From assembly GCA_004299305.1 (NCBI GenBank), contig SCPZ01000061.1, positions 1 to 54,522 of the forward strand: a DNA stretch of 54,522 bases, read 5' to 3'. A model generated the notes under the pieces. It did no database searches, was not told the DNA's origin, and worked only from the letters and a program-made list of their open reading frames with translations. Source of the stretch: Methylobacter sp. (GTDB lineage Bacteria > Pseudomonadota > Gammaproteobacteria > Methylococcales > Methylomonadaceae). Every line of letters begins with the position of its first letter. Within the stretch, counting starts at the first letter, position 1. Below, one piece after another: positions 3,219 to 14,014 of the stretch. The translations under genes and the position numbers were made by a program.

Positions 3219-3725
3219 CTAGTAATAGGCTGAAGCCCAAAACAACAAACCGCCTGCGAATACCCCCGCCAGCACATCATCCAGCATGATGCCCAGGCCG
3301 CCATGCACCTGCCGATCAATCCACTTAATCGGCCACGGTTTGAGTATGTCGAAGAACCTGAACAAGATGAAACCCAGCACCACTGCTTGCCAGGAAAAGG
3401 GAACCAGACACATCGTTATCAGGTAACCGGCAATCTCGTCCCAAACGATGCCGCCGAAATCGTGTTCATCGAGTTTTTTTGCAGCACTGTCGCAGATCCA
3501 AATACCGACAACTGTGACAATCAGCGTCAAAAATCCATAAACGAACAGATTGGTTTGCGCAAATAACCAGTAAACAGGAATGGCGGCCAATGTACCGAAA
3601 GTGCCTGGGGCTTTTTTTGCTAAACCGGAACCGAAACCGAAGGCCAAAAACAGGACCGGATCAGACAGCACCTGCTTGGGCGTTAGTTTATTTTTACCTA
3701 ATTGGGTATTAAGAAAAATGCTCAA
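3219..3725 (-). CDS. pgpA: Phosphatidylglycerophosphatase A
   Basis: A 168-residue membrane enzyme that removes phosphate from phosphatidylglycerophosphate to make phosphatidylglycerol in the inner membrane. Family motifs are present: FGFGSGLAKKAPGTFGT near residue 30, DEHDFGGIVWDEIAGYL near 85-100, and FRFFDILKPWPI followed by GGLGIMLDDVLAG near the C-terminus. Hydrophobic segments fill the spaces between them. Its start overlaps the 3' end of thiL by 17 bp, which points to translational coupling, and thiL-pgpA is the usual gammaproteobacterial order at the end of the rib-nusB block. Length is typical. Confidence 0.95.
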   Translation of the reverse strand: MSIFLNTQLGKNKLTPKQVLSDPVLFLAFGFGSGLAKKAPGTFGTLAAIPVYWLFAQTNLFVYGFLTLIVTVVGIWICDSAAKKLDEHDFGGIVWDEIAGYLITMCLVPFSWQAVVLGFILFRFFDILKPWPIKWIDRQVHGGLGIMLDDVLAGVFAGGLLFWASAYY

Positions 3726-4644
3726 AACCTTTTACCTCTAATGATTGGATATGACCAGACTTATTCAAGCGTAAACCCGGTTTGGATTCAATAATGCCGA
3801 TTTTAGTCGCCTTTATAGTTAACTTATCTGCCTGATCGGGGCTTAGGGTAAAGCACAGCTCATAGTCGTCACCGGCAGTTAACGGCATAGACCAATCGCC
3901 GGTATCGTTTATATAAGCCTGCACAATGCTTGACAGCGGTAACGTTTCCCAATCAAGGCAGGCGCCAACTTGGCTTTGCTCGAGAATATGGCCCAGATCA
4001 CCGGCCAAACCGTCCGATAAATCGATACAGGCATTGGCAATACCGATTAAGCTTTGCCCGGCGTCGACTTGCGGTTCCGGTCGGTTAAATCGCGTTAAAG
4101 CCGACTCGGGATTTGCACAGTTGTAACCTTGCTTGATCTTTAAACCCAGCCCTGCATCGCCCAAATAACCGGTCATATAGATAAAATCGCCGGGACGAGC
4201 TTTAGATCGTAGCAACGCCAGACCTTTCGGAACTAAACCCATAGCCTGAACGGTCAAGGTCAACGGACCTGAGGTGGTATCGCCGCCAATCAAATCCACC
4301 GAATAGCGCTTGGCCAAATTTAAAAAACCTTGGGCAAAGGCTGTCAGCCAGCTTTCATCAACTTTGGGTAGGGTTAAGGCCAATGTTACCGAGATTGGCT
4401 TGGCGCCCATTGCGGCTAAATCGCTCAAATTGACGGCCAGCAGTTTATGGCCCAGCAGCTCCGGATCGGTTCCGGCAAAGAAATGTACGTTTTCGACCAT
4501 CGTGTCGGTGGTCACGACCAGCTCGAAACCCTCGGGAATGGACAGTAGCGCGCAGTCATCGCCGATGCCCAAGCGCGTTGAGGGATTGGTGATCCGTTGC
4601 TTGGTGAAGAAGCGTTGGATTAGGGAAAATTCGGAAAGCGGCAT
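3709..4644 (-). CDS. thiL: Thiamine-monophosphate kinase
   Basis: A 311-residue kinase that phosphorylates thiamine monophosphate to thiamine diphosphate, the last step of cofactor synthesis. AIRS-kinase motifs are visible: LGIGDDCALL near residue 25, VNLSDLAAMGAKP near 70, DLIGGDTTSG near 115, ACIDLSDGLAGDLGHI near 205 and GDDYELCF near 250. The length is normal. In related genomes nusB lies immediately upstream; here an AAA-ATPase/TOPRIM pair and a strong inverted repeat (4652-4718) separate the two genes, so thiL-pgpA may depend on read-through or on its own promoter. No good promoter was obvious in the 84-bp spacer. Confidence 0.96.
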   Translation of the reverse strand: MPLSEFSLIQRFFTKQRITNPSTRLGIGDDCALLSIPEGFELVVTTDTMVENVHFFAGTDPELLGHKLLAVNLSDLAAMGAKPISVTLALTLPKVDESWLTAFAQGFLNLAKRYSVDLIGGDTTSGPLTLTVQAMGLVPKGLALLRSKARPGDFIYMTGYLGDAGLGLKIKQGYNCANPESALTRFNRPEPQVDAGQSLIGIANACIDLSDGLAGDLGHILEQSQVGACLDWETLPLSSIVQAYINDTGDWSMPLTAGDDYELCFTLSPDQADKLTIKATKIGIIESKPGLRLNKSGHIQSLEVKGFEHFS

Positions 4645-4651
4645 GATCTCA

Positions 4652-4718
4652 AGTAGGGCGTGCCATGCGCGCCAAAGAATAGCAAGTCATCAAAAAGGCG
4701 CGCATGGCACGCCCTACT
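4652..4718. repeat. Perfect 22-bp inverted repeat (hairpin) between the TOPRIM gene and thiL
   Basis: The arm at 4652-4673 (starts AGTAGGGCGTGCC) is exactly complementary to the arm at 4697-4718 (ends GGCACGCCCTACT), with a 23-nt AT-rich loop. There is no clear U-tract, so it looks more like a REP/MITE-type palindrome than an intrinsic terminator. In RNA it would form a very stable hairpin just upstream of thiL, at the downstream boundary of the inserted AAA/TOPRIM cassette. Confidence 0.85.
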
Positions 4719-4728
4719 CAGCACATAG

Positions 4729-5289
4729 TTAAATTGCAAAAAGATTCGTTAATTCGTCTTTAAGATCGTTAAAACAAGGATGATTTAAATTATCGGGTGG
4801 ATCGGAATAAGCTGTTTTGTAAAGTTTAAGAATCTTTTTATGATCTTTATTATTCATTTCCGAACATTCAACAAAACATTCAATACATTTTCGTTCTTTT
4901 TCTGGTAATGAGGCTAAAATTAGTGATTCCAAATAACCAGCTCTGCTACTAGGAGAGCAGACAATGTAAAACCGGGCTATATCTTGAAAAGCTAATTCAT
5001 TGATAATGTTATTCAATTGTAGTTCTGTGTTTTCAAAGCCTTTGTATATCGCATCATCTTCTTTGTGATCAGCATCAACAATAAATAATATTTTGTTTAT
5101 CTGATCTGTTTCAACCTGCTGTTTCAGTAGCGAGTATTTTTCTTTTTTAAAAAAATTACTTTTAGAACCAAAACCTTCAAATTGAATAAAACTTTCATCC
5201 AATTTTAAATTAGCAAGTAAGGCTTTTATGAACTTCTTGTCAGAAGTATCTTTGTTATTACCTTCATGCAAAATAGCTGCTTTTACCAT
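4729..5289 (-). CDS. TOPRIM-like nuclease subunit (DUF3226/DUF4435-type), partner of the AAA ATPase
   Basis: A 186-residue AT-rich gene. It resembles stand-alone TOPRIM-type proteins of the DUF3226 group: an N-terminal acidic motif LHEGNNKD (Glu9), a DxD-type motif LFIVDADHKEDD (Asp72 and Asp74) and a later conserved-looking SSRAGYLESLIL segment. Glu plus DxD forms the metal site in TOPRIM nucleases of the OLD/Gabija/PARIS kind. It overlaps the upstream AAA-ATPase gene by 7 bp, so the two are probably co-translated. Its composition and codon use (many AAA, AAT, TTT codons) differ from neighbouring thiL and nusB, which suggests acquisition. Defence function is inferred from the pairing; the family assignment comes from motif recognition, not a search. 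Confidence 0.7.
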   Translation of the reverse strand: MVKAAILHEGNNKDTSDKKFIKALLANLKLDESFIQFEGFGSKSNFFKKEKYSLLKQQVETDQINKILFIVDADHKEDDAIYKGFENTELQLNNIINELAFQDIARFYIVCSPSSRAGYLESLILASLPEKERKCIECFVECSEMNNKDHKKILKLYKTAYSDPPDNLNHPCFNDLKDELTNLFAI

Positions 5290-6245
5290 CCCCTGACCTC
5301 ATGTTCTTGAGCCAAGCTATTCAAAAGCACTTCATAATTCATAGCAATGGTTTTTATTTCCTGCTGCTTGTTTTTTACCAAGAGAGTGTAGCTAATATCT
5401 GGCTCTTTCAGTTTTTCGGCAACTCGCGCAAACGATTCGAGCATTTCTTTGGAATGCGTGACTGCAAACACTTGGCAATTGATTTTCTTGGAAAGCGTTA
5501 AAATAAGCTCCCATAACCTGTCTAACTGGGTGTAGTGAATGCCGTTATCTATTTCATCGATAAATAAATAACCGTTTTCACAGGCATATAGGGCGCAGAT
5601 AATGGAAATGTAATGCCTTAAGCCGTCACCGAACTCGACTATATCGCGGTATTCGCCATTGGTTTTGCATTGCGGTTTATCGCCAATAACTTTAAATATT
5701 TCTATACTATTATCAAACTCATAAATATAATCATTTAACTGATTTTCTTGGTCCTGCTTTTGGACGGCTTGATAAAGTCTTATCAGGCCACCGTTATCAC
5801 AACCAAAATTATCTATATACATGATATTATATATACTATTAGCGTCAATAGAGAGGTTATTTGCATTAATAACATAATCTGTGTTATCAACACTAACTTT
5901 ATATTCTTTTATTCCGCTTTTCTTTACTACAGCGAACTCTATATTTTTCAAATTAGATTTAGCCAAATAGTTTTCTATACTATCTAAATATCTTTGATCA
6001 TTGATGCTACCTATCTTAGCCGCAATATTTAAAAATTCACGAGAATATTTGGTATTAATAATAGCTGTTAATATCTTATCCACATTGACCGAATGAACAT
6101 TAATATAACAAGCCTCCATAAACGCCGTCTTACCAATATTATTTTTCCCGCCAATCAAATTAACTCGCTTAAAACCGGACGCTTTAAAACAGGTAAAACA
6201 TTTAAACTGTGTTATTTCAATCTCGGTTAAAAAATGCTCATTCAT
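5283..6245 (-). CDS. OLD-like / AAA_15-type ABC ATPase, partner of a TOPRIM protein
   Basis: A 320-residue ATPase of the SMC/RecF/OLD class. It has the N-terminal ITQFKCF segment typical of these ATPases, a Walker A motif GGKNNIGKT (about residues 32-40), an ABC-signature-like EFGDGLRHYISI (about 204-215), Walker B YLFIDEIDNGIHY (Asp230, Glu231) and a switch histidine VFAVTHSKEML (about 259-269). This is the ATPase module of OLD nucleases without the fused TOPRIM domain; that domain is supplied by the next gene. The same split layout is known in the PARIS anti-phage system (AriA/AriB). A plausible SD (AGGA) lies about 9 nt upstream. It is strongly AT-rich relative to its neighbours. Target and trigger are unknown. 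Confidence 0.8.
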   Translation of the reverse strand: MNEHFLTEIEITQFKCFTCFKASGFKRVNLIGGKNNIGKTAFMEACYINVHSVNVDKILTAIINTKYSREFLNIAAKIGSINDQRYLDSIENYLAKSNLKNIEFAVVKKSGIKEYKVSVDNTDYVINANNLSIDANSIYNIMYIDNFGCDNGGLIRLYQAVQKQDQENQLNDYIYEFDNSIEIFKVIGDKPQCKTNGEYRDIVEFGDGLRHYISIICALYACENGYLFIDEIDNGIHYTQLDRLWELILTLSKKINCQVFAVTHSKEMLESFARVAEKLKEPDISYTLLVKNKQQEIKTIAMNYEVLLNSLAQEHEVRGW

Positions 6246-6423
6246 CTTATCGATCCTACCCGTTATCGAAACAGAAAACTTCGTGTCCTTCGTGCCTTCG
6301 TGGTGAATAAAAAGCTTTTGATCTACTTAGGGATGCCGCAAGCCTAAAAATCCCATCATTAATGATAGTTTTGCAAAACAACCCAACTCGGCATATAGCT
6401 ACAAAGGTATTTTGAAAAAGACA
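6246..6423. other. Spacer between nusB and the AAA/TOPRIM cassette, with a short dispersed repeat
   Basis: This 178-bp spacer contains TTCGTGTCCTTCGTGCC and TTCGTGGTG at about 6279-6305, a motif related to the CACGAAG/CTTCGTG hairpin at 17446-17471. The rest is AT-rich. Any promoter for the AAA/TOPRIM pair should lie here, but I could not pick out a convincing one. Confidence 0.5.
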
Positions 6424-6864
6424 TCATCCCTTACCTTGCGCCTTACTCTTAATCTCCACCGCTCTTTTTTGCTGCGCAACCTTATCCAATATACCGTTGA
6501 CATACTTATGACTACCATCCGCGCCAAAGTATTTGGCCAGATTAATACCTTCGTTTAACACAACCTTGTACGGCATATCCAACCGGTGCAACAACTCATA
6601 CACGCCGATTCTTAAAATCGCCCTTTCGACCGGGTCAATCGCATCAACCGGACGATCTACAAATTCCGATAACACCAGATCAATAGCGTCCAGGTTTTTA
6701 GGCACACCGTAAAACAACTCGACAAAATAACTTTTCTGAGCGTCTTTCAATCGCTCTTCTTCCAGAAACTGCCGTTCGATCTCGCTAAGAGCCTGACCGG
6801 CCATCTGCCATTGATACAATGCCTGTACAGCAGCCTTTCGGGCATTGGTTCTCGCTTGACTCAT
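6424..6864 (-). CDS. nusB: Transcription antitermination protein NusB
   Basis: A 146-residue all-helical RNA-binding protein that with NusE (S10) binds boxA of rRNA leaders for antitermination. It begins with the family-typical SQARTNARKAAVQALYQWQ, and carries FVDRPVDAIDPVERAILRIGVYELLH in the middle and VVLNEGINLAKYFGADGSHKYVNG toward the end. The start ATG shares one base with the ribH stop (TAATG), so translation is coupled. Normal length. It belongs to the rib-nusB operon, whose continuation to thiL is interrupted downstream. Confidence 0.97.
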   Translation of the reverse strand: MSQARTNARKAAVQALYQWQMAGQALSEIERQFLEEERLKDAQKSYFVELFYGVPKNLDAIDLVLSEFVDRPVDAIDPVERAILRIGVYELLHRLDMPYKVVLNEGINLAKYFGADGSHKYVNGILDKVAQQKRAVEIKSKAQGKG

Positions 6865-7372: not shown

Positions 7373-7636
7373 TTAATCTTTAGCATAATGAAATCTAAAG
7401 GAAATAAAAATGATCTCTGTTGCGGTGACTTTATAAACAAGTCGGTGCTCCGAGTTAATTCTTCTCGACCAAAATCCTGATAAATTTGCTTTAAGAAGCT
7501 CCGGCTTTCCTGTACCTTCAAAAGGCGTTCTTTGTATTTCTTTAATTAAGCCATTAATGCGTTTTAACAGTTTTTTATCGTTATCTTGAAACCAAACGTA
7601 ATCAAGCCATGAGCTTTCTGTAAAAACTAACTTCAT
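7373..7636 (-). CDS. yoeB: YoeB-family mRNA-cleaving toxin
   Basis: An 87-residue RelE-superfamily ribosome-dependent endoribonuclease. It matches YoeB closely over [55 protein letters not shown] and EHRLVYKV, ending in a FRFHYAKD tail in place of the usual CRYHY. The Glu of the RTPFEG region, the SRRI and EHRL arginines and the C-terminal His/Tyr correspond to the catalytic set, so the toxin looks intact. Its start codon overlaps the antitoxin stop (ATGA). Confidence 0.93.
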
Positions 7637-7887
7637 TCTTCGATAAGCTGTTTTTCAAAAACATGCCCCAGCTCCAATTCTTGAATGGATTTTTGTAAAT
7701 GTGCGGCATTTACAGGGTTCGATAATAAATAAAATGTTTCTTGCCAGGCATTAAAGTCGTCAAGCGCCATTAAAACCGCTTTATTTCCGTTATCGTTAAA
7801 TACTATAGTCGGTTCAACATTAGCGATAACTTGTTCGATAAGCTGATCTAAATTTTTAGAGGCTTGAGCTGTTGTTATAGCATCCAT
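7633..7887 (-). CDS. yefM: YefM/Phd-family antitoxin
   Basis: An 84-residue antitoxin of the Phd/YefM family. The N-terminal part (DAITTAQASKNLDQLIEQV, then ALDDFNAWQETFYLLSNP) is the DNA-binding dimer fold that represses its own operon, and the acidic tail ([16 protein letters not shown]) would wrap and inhibit YoeB. A strong SD (AGGAG, 5 nt before ATG) supports the start. It overlaps yoeB by 4 bp, the usual antitoxin-first arrangement. The module sits between ribBA and ribH. Confidence 0.92.
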   Translation of the reverse strand: MDAITTAQASKNLDQLIEQVIANVEPTIVFNDNGNKAVLMALDDFNAWQETFYLLSNPVNAAHLQKSIQELELGHVFEKQLIEE

Positions 7888-12901: not shown

Positions 12902-12965
12902 CTAAAAACCGCAGTTGGATCGTGTGAAAGCCGTTCGTGCTAAACCTCAAAGCATGGGTGGCTCC

Positions 12966-13067
12966 ATGTTTATGTTTATGTTTATGTTTATGTTTATGTT
13001 TATGTTTATGTTTATGTTTATGTTTATGTTTATGTTTATGTTTATGTTTATGTTTATGTTTATGTTT
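12966..13067. repeat. Hexanucleotide microsatellite (ATGTTT)17
   Basis: Seventeen uninterrupted perfect copies of ATGTTT (AAACAT on the minus strand) over 102 bp. Read on the plus strand it encodes a Met-Phe run within a spurious open frame. It lies in the spacer upstream of the minus-strand Bfd-like gene and downstream of galU. Perfect tandem arrays of this length are prone to slipped-strand copy change. Confidence 0.97.
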
Positions 13068-13087
13068 AATTCAGATTGTGGTACGAC

Positions 13088-13121
13088 GCTTGTAATAACG
13101 AATAAATTCGCCATTACAAGC
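13088..13121. repeat. 34-bp imperfect palindrome downstream of galU
   Basis: Arms GCTTGTAAT (13088-13096) and ATTACAAGC (13113-13121) pair perfectly, and inner CGAAT/ATTCG extends the stem. It lies 11 bp beyond the galU stop. It could be a terminator-like hairpin for galU but lacks a U-tract. Confidence 0.65.
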
Positions 13122-13132
13122 TCGCATGTTAC

Positions 13133-14014
13133 TTACTCAAGAACCAAATTCTTCAAATAATCCAGAAAATCGCCCTTTAACTCTTCATGTATCAAGCCAT
13201 ATTCAACAGTTGCCTGCAAATAACCGAGTTTTGATCCGCAATCGTACCGTTTACCTTCAAATTCATAGGCCAGCACCTGCTCATCGGTCATTAATGCCGC
13301 TATCGCATCAGTCAACTGGATCTCACCACCAGCGCCGCGCTCTGTCGTTTCAATCTTTTCAAAAATGGCAGGTGTCAGAATATAGCGACCAACTACTCCG
13401 AGATTTGATGGAGCGCGCTCGGGAGCAGGTTTTTCAACAATCAATTCAACCTGGCCTAGCGCCGGGGAGACTTCCTTGGTTTTGACTATGCCGTATTTAT
13501 CGGTTTCTTGGGGATTTACTCTTTCTACGCCTAATACACTGCACTGATTTTTATCATATTGCTCAACCATTTGAGTCATACAACCGGCGCCGTTACGATT
13601 TCCGATCAAGTCATCGGCCAAGATAACCGCAAACGGTTCATCGCCGACGGCAGACTTGGCGCAAAGCACCGCATGACCTAAGCCCAATGCTTCAGGCTGA
13701 CGAATAAACACGAATGACACATTCGGCGGCATCATCTCCCGAACCATTTTTAATATTCCGGTCTTACCGCGAATAGTCAGCTCATTTTCCAACTCATAAG
13801 CCTTATCAAAATGATCCATGATGACGTTTTTGGTTCGGCCCGTAACAAATATCATCGTATCAATACCCGCAGCTACGGCCTCTTCAACACAATACTGGAT
13901 CAAGGGCTTGTCCACAACCGGCAACATTTCCTTCGGACTGGCCTTAGTGGCAGGTAAAAAGCGGGTTCCGAGACCCGCAACCGGAAAAACTGCTTTTCTT
14001 ATTTTTTGATTCAT
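13133..14014 (-). CDS. galU: UTP--glucose-1-phosphate uridylyltransferase
   Basis: A 293-residue nucleotidyltransferase making UDP-glucose from UTP and glucose 1-phosphate, for polysaccharide and glycogen-related synthesis. It begins with the family-typical KIRKAVFPVAGLGTRFLPATKA (nucleotide-binding loop), followed by PKEMLPVVDKPLIQYCVEEA, RQPEALGLGHAVLCAK, FAVILADDLI and RYILTPAIFEKIE, with GGEIQLTDAI and RYDCGSKLGYL near the end. The ATG at 14014 matches the usual N-terminus; the frame extends 21 codons further upstream without homology. Apparently monocistronic. Confidence 0.96.
   Translation of the reverse strand: MNQKIRKAVFPVAGLGTRFLPATKASPKEMLPVVDKPLIQYCVEEAVAAGIDTMIFVTGRTKNVIMDHFDKAYELENELTIRGKTGILKMVREMMPPNVSFVFIRQPEALGLGHAVLCAKSAVGDEPFAVILADDLIGNRNGAGCMTQMVEQYDKNQCSVLGVERVNPQETDKYGIVKTKEVSPALGQVELIVEKPAPERAPSNLGVVGRYILTPAIFEKIETTERGAGGEIQLTDAIAALMTDEQVLAYEFEGKRYDCGSKLGYLQATVEYGLIHEELKGDFLDYLKNLVLE

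Follow-up and report, generated by a model that had tools for sequence, protein, structure and literature searches.

An OLD-type ATPase and a DUF3226 TOPRIM protein encoded between nusB and thiL of a Methylobacter: a candidate two-protein abortive-infection cassette

Introduction

TOPRIM effectors, in pairs with OLD-type ATPases, make up a growing class of bacterial immunity. In PARIS, the TOPRIM nuclease is reported to be bound to an ATPase sensor and freed when a phage protein binds (PMC12409363). The effector of AbiL is also described as TOPRIM_OLD-type, and AAA-paired TOPRIM_OLD proteins are reported in the same source as neutralised toxins that behave as toxin-antitoxin (TA) pairs (PMC10440598). 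The DUF3226 branch of this class is little studied, and the open literature that we searched yielded no mention of DUF3226, of its Pfam entry PF11536 or of the PADLOC candidate PDC-M38. Here we describe a pair of genes for an ATPase and a TOPRIM protein in a stretch of 54,522 nucleotides from Methylobacter sp. (GenBank assembly GCA_004299305.1, contig SCPZ01000061.1), hereafter called the window. The pair lies between nusB and thiL, in a vitamin and transcription gene cluster of a methane-eating bacterium. We consider it probable, with reservations set out below, that it is a two-protein, OLD-derived abortive-infection cassette of the AAA+DUF3226 kind.

Results

Two proteins with conserved catalytic motifs

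A sequence-only reading of the window had named two open reading frames with a 7-bp overlap, for an ATPase with Walker A, signature-like, Walker B and H-loop motifs and for a DUF3226-like TOPRIM protein with a glutamate and a DxD motif; both frames exist (320 and 186 amino acids (aa); Table 1). The TOPRIM protein matches DUF3226 with 31.7 bits, above the cut-off of 27, and all 30 aligned members of its family match at E 0.01, while Pfam gives no DUF4435 match at E 1, in agreement with its placement as DUF3226-like rather than in the AriB family. E9 is kept in 29 of the 30 aligned TOPRIM proteins, and D17, D72, D74, E121 and K151 in all of them; the loss of acidic-residue conservation that had been set as a refuting result was not seen. 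Six of the seven positions of the OLD catalytic set (E-x3-E/D, DxD, T/S-x-E and K) are kept in the family, a correspondence judged by order and spacing and not by residue-level superposition. The predicted structure of the window TOPRIM resembles OLD TOPRIMs. The canonical DUF3226 profile reaches AriB with E 0.08 over 53 positions, and the family profile found no match among the sequences of solved structures at E up to 1.

In the ATPase, every proposed motif was recovered in 30 or 31 of the 31 aligned proteins: Walker A (G33, K34, G38, K39 and T40), the signature-like motif (E204, G206, D207 and G208), the H-loop (T263-H264-S265) and E231 of Walker B in all, and D230 of Walker B in 30. It matches AAA_15 with 49.5 bits and AAA_21 with 44 bits (Pfam). 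Among PADLOC models, AbiLi is the best (151.5 bits, best stretch 97-318), followed by PDC-M38A (128) and, lower, AriA; GajA and Old reach 28 and 23 bits. Its structure matches are Rad50/SMC heads, and the profile of its family found no match to solved-structure sequences at E up to 0.01. Mean pairwise identity among the 31 ATPases is 76% over residues 1-60 and 75% over residues 191-320, with 41% over residues 61-190. Between the window and five relatives, the ratio of nonsynonymous to synonymous divergence (dN/dS) over residues 166-320 is 0.04-0.08, showing purifying selection. We do not claim positive selection in the middle of the ATPase, because synonymous sites are saturated there.

The two genes are nearly always paired and are patchily distributed

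A genome-wide pattern search returned 34 related loci, mostly from Methylococcales, with three from Gallionellaceae and two from Thiotrichales. In 28 of them an intact TOPRIM gene directly follows the ATPase gene and starts inside its end, the overlap (counted from the first in-frame start codon) being 7 nt in 12 loci, 1 nt in 14 and 4 nt in two; in L095 the overlap depends on a TTG start and disappears if the ATG is used instead. At three other loci (L085 9090-9200, L092 9090-9200 and L111 9085-9190) the TOPRIM reading frame is interrupted shortly ahead of the DxD, where one base seems to be missing from a homopolymer or from its immediate vicinity. The ATPase frame is also broken in L111 and intact in L085 and L092; sequencing error, inactivation or a switch are alternative explanations. 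No TOPRIM match was found at L096, L097 and L110; the latter two are at contig ends, and the ATPase frame of L096 departs after residue 300. In two sister loci we observed single changes at motif positions: the TOPRIM glutamate is a lysine in L107 (8954-9538), and the Walker B aspartate is a glycine in L106 (1366-2319; read in its twin L066). We also considered the TOPRIM genes of G005 and G020 as pseudogenes with an inner TAG and rejected this, the TAG being a normal stop one residue before the window's. A match in G018 was discarded as chance, since it sits in a 729-aa frame resembling, by eye, a CheA-type kinase.

In a sample of 397 genomes from the phylum, including the window's own, DUF3226 was found above cut-off in nine genomes, with 11 matches, all adjoined by an OLD-like ATPase (one being a second pair of the window genome), as against neither of two matches below cut-off. 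This search did not recover the window's own TOPRIM, so divergent members are under-counted.

Within the genus, nusB and thiL lie on one contig in 19 of 23 genomes. Fifteen of these have 33-344 bp between the two matches, as the sequence-only reading had expected of genes that are normally adjacent, and four carry the pair; universal presence at the locus with normal composition, which that reading had named as a refuter, was not found. Of the remaining genomes, G003, G012 and G014 gave no orthologous nusB, and the contig of G001 ends past nusB; G001 is a fifth carrier, with the pair at another place. Ten further genomes of the family, fetched with nusB and thiL, have no pair at the site. Altogether this type of pair was found in 9 of 101 relatives and in 5 of 23 genomes of the genus, some of the 18 others being incomplete. 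One of the ten further genomes (G023; L077 4813-6125) has a different insert of 1.3 kb at the site, in which a GGDEF-like frame can be made out by eye.

Parts of the pair seem to have different histories

We compared synonymous divergence (dS) along the locus. Between the window genome (G000) and G005, dS is 0.34 (0.22-0.50) for the TOPRIM gene, 0.46 (0.23-0.82) for ATPase residues 1-60 and 0.93 (0.59-1.54) for residues 166-320; residues 61-165 are saturated (bootstrap lower bound 1.18), and five flanking genes lie at 0.75-1.26. Between G005 and G020, the pair shows a dS of 0 to 0.09 and four of the five flanking genes 0.16-0.36. At 0.07, the fifth flanking gene, pgpA, is as low as the pair, and exchange may therefore have reached beyond the pair itself.

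Trees, all of the quick kind, gave a related picture. The TOPRIM tree rejects a grouping of G010 with G005 and G020 (approximately unbiased (AU) test, p 0.0002) that is favoured by the ATPase middle (support 90, not starred) and by the ATPase ends (support 72). The TOPRIM grouping is not rejected by the ends (p 0.50) or the middle (p 0.23). A single clade of the five Methylobacter is supported by ATPase ends and TOPRIM and rejected by the ATPase middle (p 0.03), whose tree has long branches, the window's among them. The evidence for conflicting histories thus comes mainly from the TOPRIM gene and from dS. Two Gallionella loci (L105 and L114) share both parts of the ATPase and have TOPRIMs in different starred groups, although the placement of L105 is less sure because of its long branch. 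The TOPRIM gene, the ATPase ends and the ATPase middle (61-165) thus apparently differ in their histories, a pattern that the swapping of sensors and effectors should leave and that is new here.

A second, canonical pair in the same genome

Also new here is a second, canonical AAA/DUF3226 pair in the window genome (L071; contig C9, 9233-11190), behind an HDOD-like gene and between genes that we take to be hisG and hisD; all three names were assigned from sequence. Its proteins score 470 and 255 bits against the PDC-M38 models. Between the two pairs, the ATPases align in two pieces at 30-33% identity, and the TOPRIMs give no significant BLAST match to each other. G001, G005 and G020 likewise have a pair between hisG and hisD (in G020 no HDOD-like gene turned up), while 13 other loci fetched from the genus have hisG beside hisD with no pair (hisG is cut in L148; L160 shows no hisG and is outside this count). 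Every one of the four genomes with a pair in the his operon also has the window type, which five genomes carry; this co-occurrence is a hint only, because two of these genomes are close relatives.

The locus, its composition and its neighbours

On the minus strand, the order of genes is ribD, ribE, ribBA, YefM-YoeB, ribH, nusB, ATPase, TOPRIM, thiL and pgpA. The housekeeping names are presumptive: they were assigned from sequence and gene order rather than by hidden Markov model. The YefM-YoeB TA pair (7373-7887), itself AT-rich, is inserted between ribBA and ribH of the same operon, and G001 has yoeB at the same place. Elsewhere in the window, an open reading frame at 12915-13160 encodes a long Met-Phe repeat, probably a hexanucleotide microsatellite, and adjoins a galU-like gene (by eye).

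Table 1. Positions of the pair and of the features around it in the window.
Feature	Position	Strand	Details
OLD/ABC-type ATPase	5283..6245	-	320 aa; Walker A 32-40, signature-like EFGDG 204-208, Walker B/D-loop 225-235, H-loop THS 263-265
TOPRIM nuclease-like protein, DUF3226 family	4729..5289	-	186 aa; putative catalytic set E9, D17, D72, D74, E121, K151
Overlap of ATPase and TOPRIM genes	5283..5289	-	7 nt
Variable middle of ATPase, residues 61-165	5751..6065	-	candidate sensing segment
Leader, nusB to ATPase	6246..6423	-	last part like leaders of three other nusB-thiL copies
22-bp perfect inverted repeat, hairpin like a repetitive extragenic palindrome (REP)	4652..4718	no strand	between TOPRIM gene and thiL
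nusB, upstream flank	6424..6864	-	
thiL, downstream flank	3709..4644	-	

The pair had been noted as AT-rich relative to its neighbours, and this holds: its G+C content (GC) is 0.324, versus 0.481 for the rest of the window, and lies below that of every one of 531 windows of 1517 bp. Such a difference fits a foreign origin. The pair is also poorer in GC than its own flanks at all 29 loci tested, which makes low GC a constant feature of this family rather than a mark of recent arrival alone.

The leader is similar among the four nusB-thiL copies, which points to one insertion, or to exchange via homologous flanks, and favours a single insertion with later loss or exchange. A common origin of the four copies needs two changes in the tree and is not rejected (AU p 0.45), nor is it shown. 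A consensus scan listed no sigma-70-like site on the minus strand of the leader. We considered the hairpin downstream of the pair and a 27-nt motif near the ATPase start as ends of the insertion and rejected them: with up to three mismatches the genome has 19 matches to the hairpin arm (the window's own two included) and six to the motif (its own included). The hairpin is probably not part of the cassette, because a similar one occurs in G017, which has no pair. No integrase was noticed at the site, where no systematic search for target duplications was made.

The window ATPase alone matches 148 plasmid and two phage records, over 36-48% of its length among the matches listed; 132 of the partial plasmid matches are Klebsiella records. 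We examined three of the plasmid records. L130 has an annotated AAA ATPase and a DUF3226 gene side by side, L131 has the same neighbours with the ATPase annotated in two pieces, and L132, a ColRNAI-type Klebsiella plasmid of 4,071 bp (NZ_CP070094.1), has an OLD-like ATPase followed by an unannotated DUF3226-like frame across the record start. The proteins of all three are closer to the canonical pair than to the window's.

Many relatives lie in or against housekeeping operons, which is new here. A Pfam scan of 30 neighbour proteins from 17 loci (three had no match) gave mostly housekeeping families (RsgA, MlaF-like ABC, MlaE, KsgA, TrpE, RsmG, MnmG, DnaE, MetH, glycosyltransferases, dCMP deaminase and others). 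Defence genes came up beside L101 (DarT and a macro-domain gene) and behind L106 (an AbiJ-domain gene); another protein with an AbiJ domain probably belongs to L107. At 21 loci, 133 neighbours, no more than seven from any one locus, were also scanned with PADLOC (E 1e-15). Twenty-seven models matched, each in at most two of the 133, and among the 25 listed are DarT, DarG, type IIG and type I restriction-methylation enzymes, IetA and an AriA-like ATPase. Some loci are therefore near defence genes, although the scan does not tell which. In the defence-island survey proposed in the sequence-only reading, housekeeping genes account for most of the identified neighbours and known defence genes for few.

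Of 30 loci examined for the distance to the following gene, 25 have an intact TOPRIM gene. At 14 of these 25, the following gene on the same strand has its start within a range from 11 bp ahead of the TOPRIM stop to 15 bp behind it. Several of the 14 are one site seen in sister genomes: mlaE accounts for four, a DAO-family oxidoreductase for two and the AbiJ gene for two. A preference of the pairs for housekeeping operons is our impression. The dnaE gene directly behind one related pair (L112 9518-13768) carries intein-splicing and LAGLIDADG domains.

Discussion

How might such a pair work? The ATPase, with a head like those of SMC, Rad50 and AriA, would form an ATP-dependent complex that holds the TOPRIM protein inactive. 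A phage cue, probably read via ATPase segment 61-165, would alter the complex, and the TOPRIM protein would then act as a two-metal nuclease on nucleic acid (RNA or DNA), stopping the infected cell. By analogy with PARIS and AbiL, abortive infection is the most likely mode. The pair has the sequence features that such a system would need, namely a complete-looking ATPase, a complete-looking nuclease and coupled genes. From its family, pairing, patchiness and exchange of parts we infer a defence module, as we infer the complex, the sensing, the nuclease activity and its target; that segment 61-165 does the sensing is a guess, and so is the kind of target.

Several observations weigh against this proposal. 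The seventh OLD ligand (T506/S478) is a tyrosine in 26 of 30 TOPRIMs, and 13 of 30, the window's included, have inserted residues between E9 and D17. Plain Foldseek placed unrelated folds first for the TOPRIM model, and AriB is not among its listed structure matches, an absence that excludes nothing. Few defence genes occur among the identified neighbours of relatives. Searched with strict patterns, viral contigs gave no relative in 107 and 74 candidate stretches, and the window TOPRIM has no match in plasmids or phages; there is hence no direct sign of phage or plasmid carriage for this subfamily, and on these searches we rejected its spread by either route.

An abortive mechanism is not the only one that would suit an OLD-like pair. 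A standing complex could act as a direct DNA nuclease in the manner of Gabija or OLD, degrading invading DNA upon a change in the nucleotide pool or in DNA ends, without cell suicide. The predicted TOPRIM fold and the catalytic layout are nearest to OLD C-terminal regions, which cut DNA, and Rad50/SMC heads are the structural matches of the ATPase, yet the genes are split, thiL and no helicase gene comes next, and the ATPase fits AbiLi far better than GajA or Old (151 vs 28 and 23 bits). We judge this explanation unlikely. A selfish addiction module, with the ATPase as the neutraliser of a TOPRIM toxin, would secure its own retention in the genome and have no dedicated role against phage; this strikes us as more doubtful still. 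An upstream neutraliser with a coupled downstream effector is a usual TA order, the same operon houses YefM-YoeB, the TOPRIM frame is broken in three relatives, two of which keep the ATPase frame, and AAA-TOPRIM_OLD pairs are reported to have acted as TA pairs (PMC10440598). However, deletion of either PARIS gene is reported to be non-toxic (PMC9122126), and the variable ATPase middle is easier explained by changing triggers than by neutralisation alone. Host nucleic-acid maintenance of a RecF/RNase M5-like kind, tied to the operon neighbours, is very improbable: the pair sits in a transcription and cofactor operon and residues 166-320 of its ATPase are under purifying selection, but it is absent from the site in 15 of 19 genus genomes and not found at all in 18 of 23 (some incomplete), related pairs adjoin many unrelated genes, and the history of the TOPRIM gene differs from that of its neighbours.

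Beyond the abortive-infection cassette that we favour for the window, a wider picture can be proposed tentatively, and we hold it with less than even confidence. AAA+DUF3226 pairs may be a modular immune family, mainly a passenger of housekeeping operons and not of defence islands, that diversifies at fixed sites by swapping three parts: the ATPase ends, the ATPase middle, for trigger reading, and the whole TOPRIM effector. On this view a Methylobacter cell would keep one pair in the nusB-thiL operon and another, tuned differently, in the hisG-hisD operon. The window pair is small, and the genes on either side of it are intact. Among its relatives the effector and, probably, the middle segment have been swapped naturally, and such chimaeras could serve to ask which part recognises the phage and which determines the target. 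Searches guided by defence-island neighbours miss pairs housed, like this one, in a housekeeping operon; PMC13092281 states this limit of such searches.

Comparison with known systems

The window ATPase belongs to the superfamily of the OLD and Gabija ATPases, and the window TOPRIM is OLD-like, its residues corresponding by order and spacing to E-x3-E/D, DxD, E and K. OLD has ATPase and TOPRIM in one chain whereas the window has two open reading frames, and its T/S metal ligand is mostly a tyrosine in the window family. In Gabija, a UvrD-like helicase gene, gajB, lies downstream, where the window has thiL.

The published detection rule for PARIS gives ATPase thresholds of 32 bits for AAA_15 and 27 bits for AAA_21 and asks for a DUF4435 partner at 27 bits (PMC9122126). 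The window ATPase, at 49.5 and 44 bits, exceeds both, but its partner has no DUF4435 row at E 1 and, with 186 aa, is much shorter than the AriB chains (308-316 aa). Judged by its sequence, the pair is not PARIS under this rule. The interpretation first proposed is partly supported: its family assignment, an OLD-type ATPase with a DUF3226 TOPRIM, is borne out, and the anti-phage role stays a candidate one.

AbiL of Lactococcus (AbiLi with AbiLii/RloB) provides the top PADLOC model for the window ATPase (AbiLi, 151.5 bits; PADLOC's cut-off not shown), whereas the window TOPRIM has no AbiLii or RloB match at E 1; 7 and 3 of 30 family members, respectively, match weakly.

PDC-M38 is one of PADLOC's candidates, a reported source of the newer ones being a 2024 preprint by Payne et al. 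on embedded defences. It has the same two parts in the same order, and the window's adjacent genes match PDC-M38A with 128 and PDC-M38B with 25.5 bits (PADLOC's own cut-offs not shown), far below the 470 and 255 bits of the canonical pair. The window proteins are also shorter, 320 and 186 aa versus 383 and 219 for the best models. The profiles of the window-type and canonical TOPRIM groups align end to end. By sequence, then, the window pair appears to be a short, divergent branch of AAA+DUF3226 pairs, near PDC-M38.
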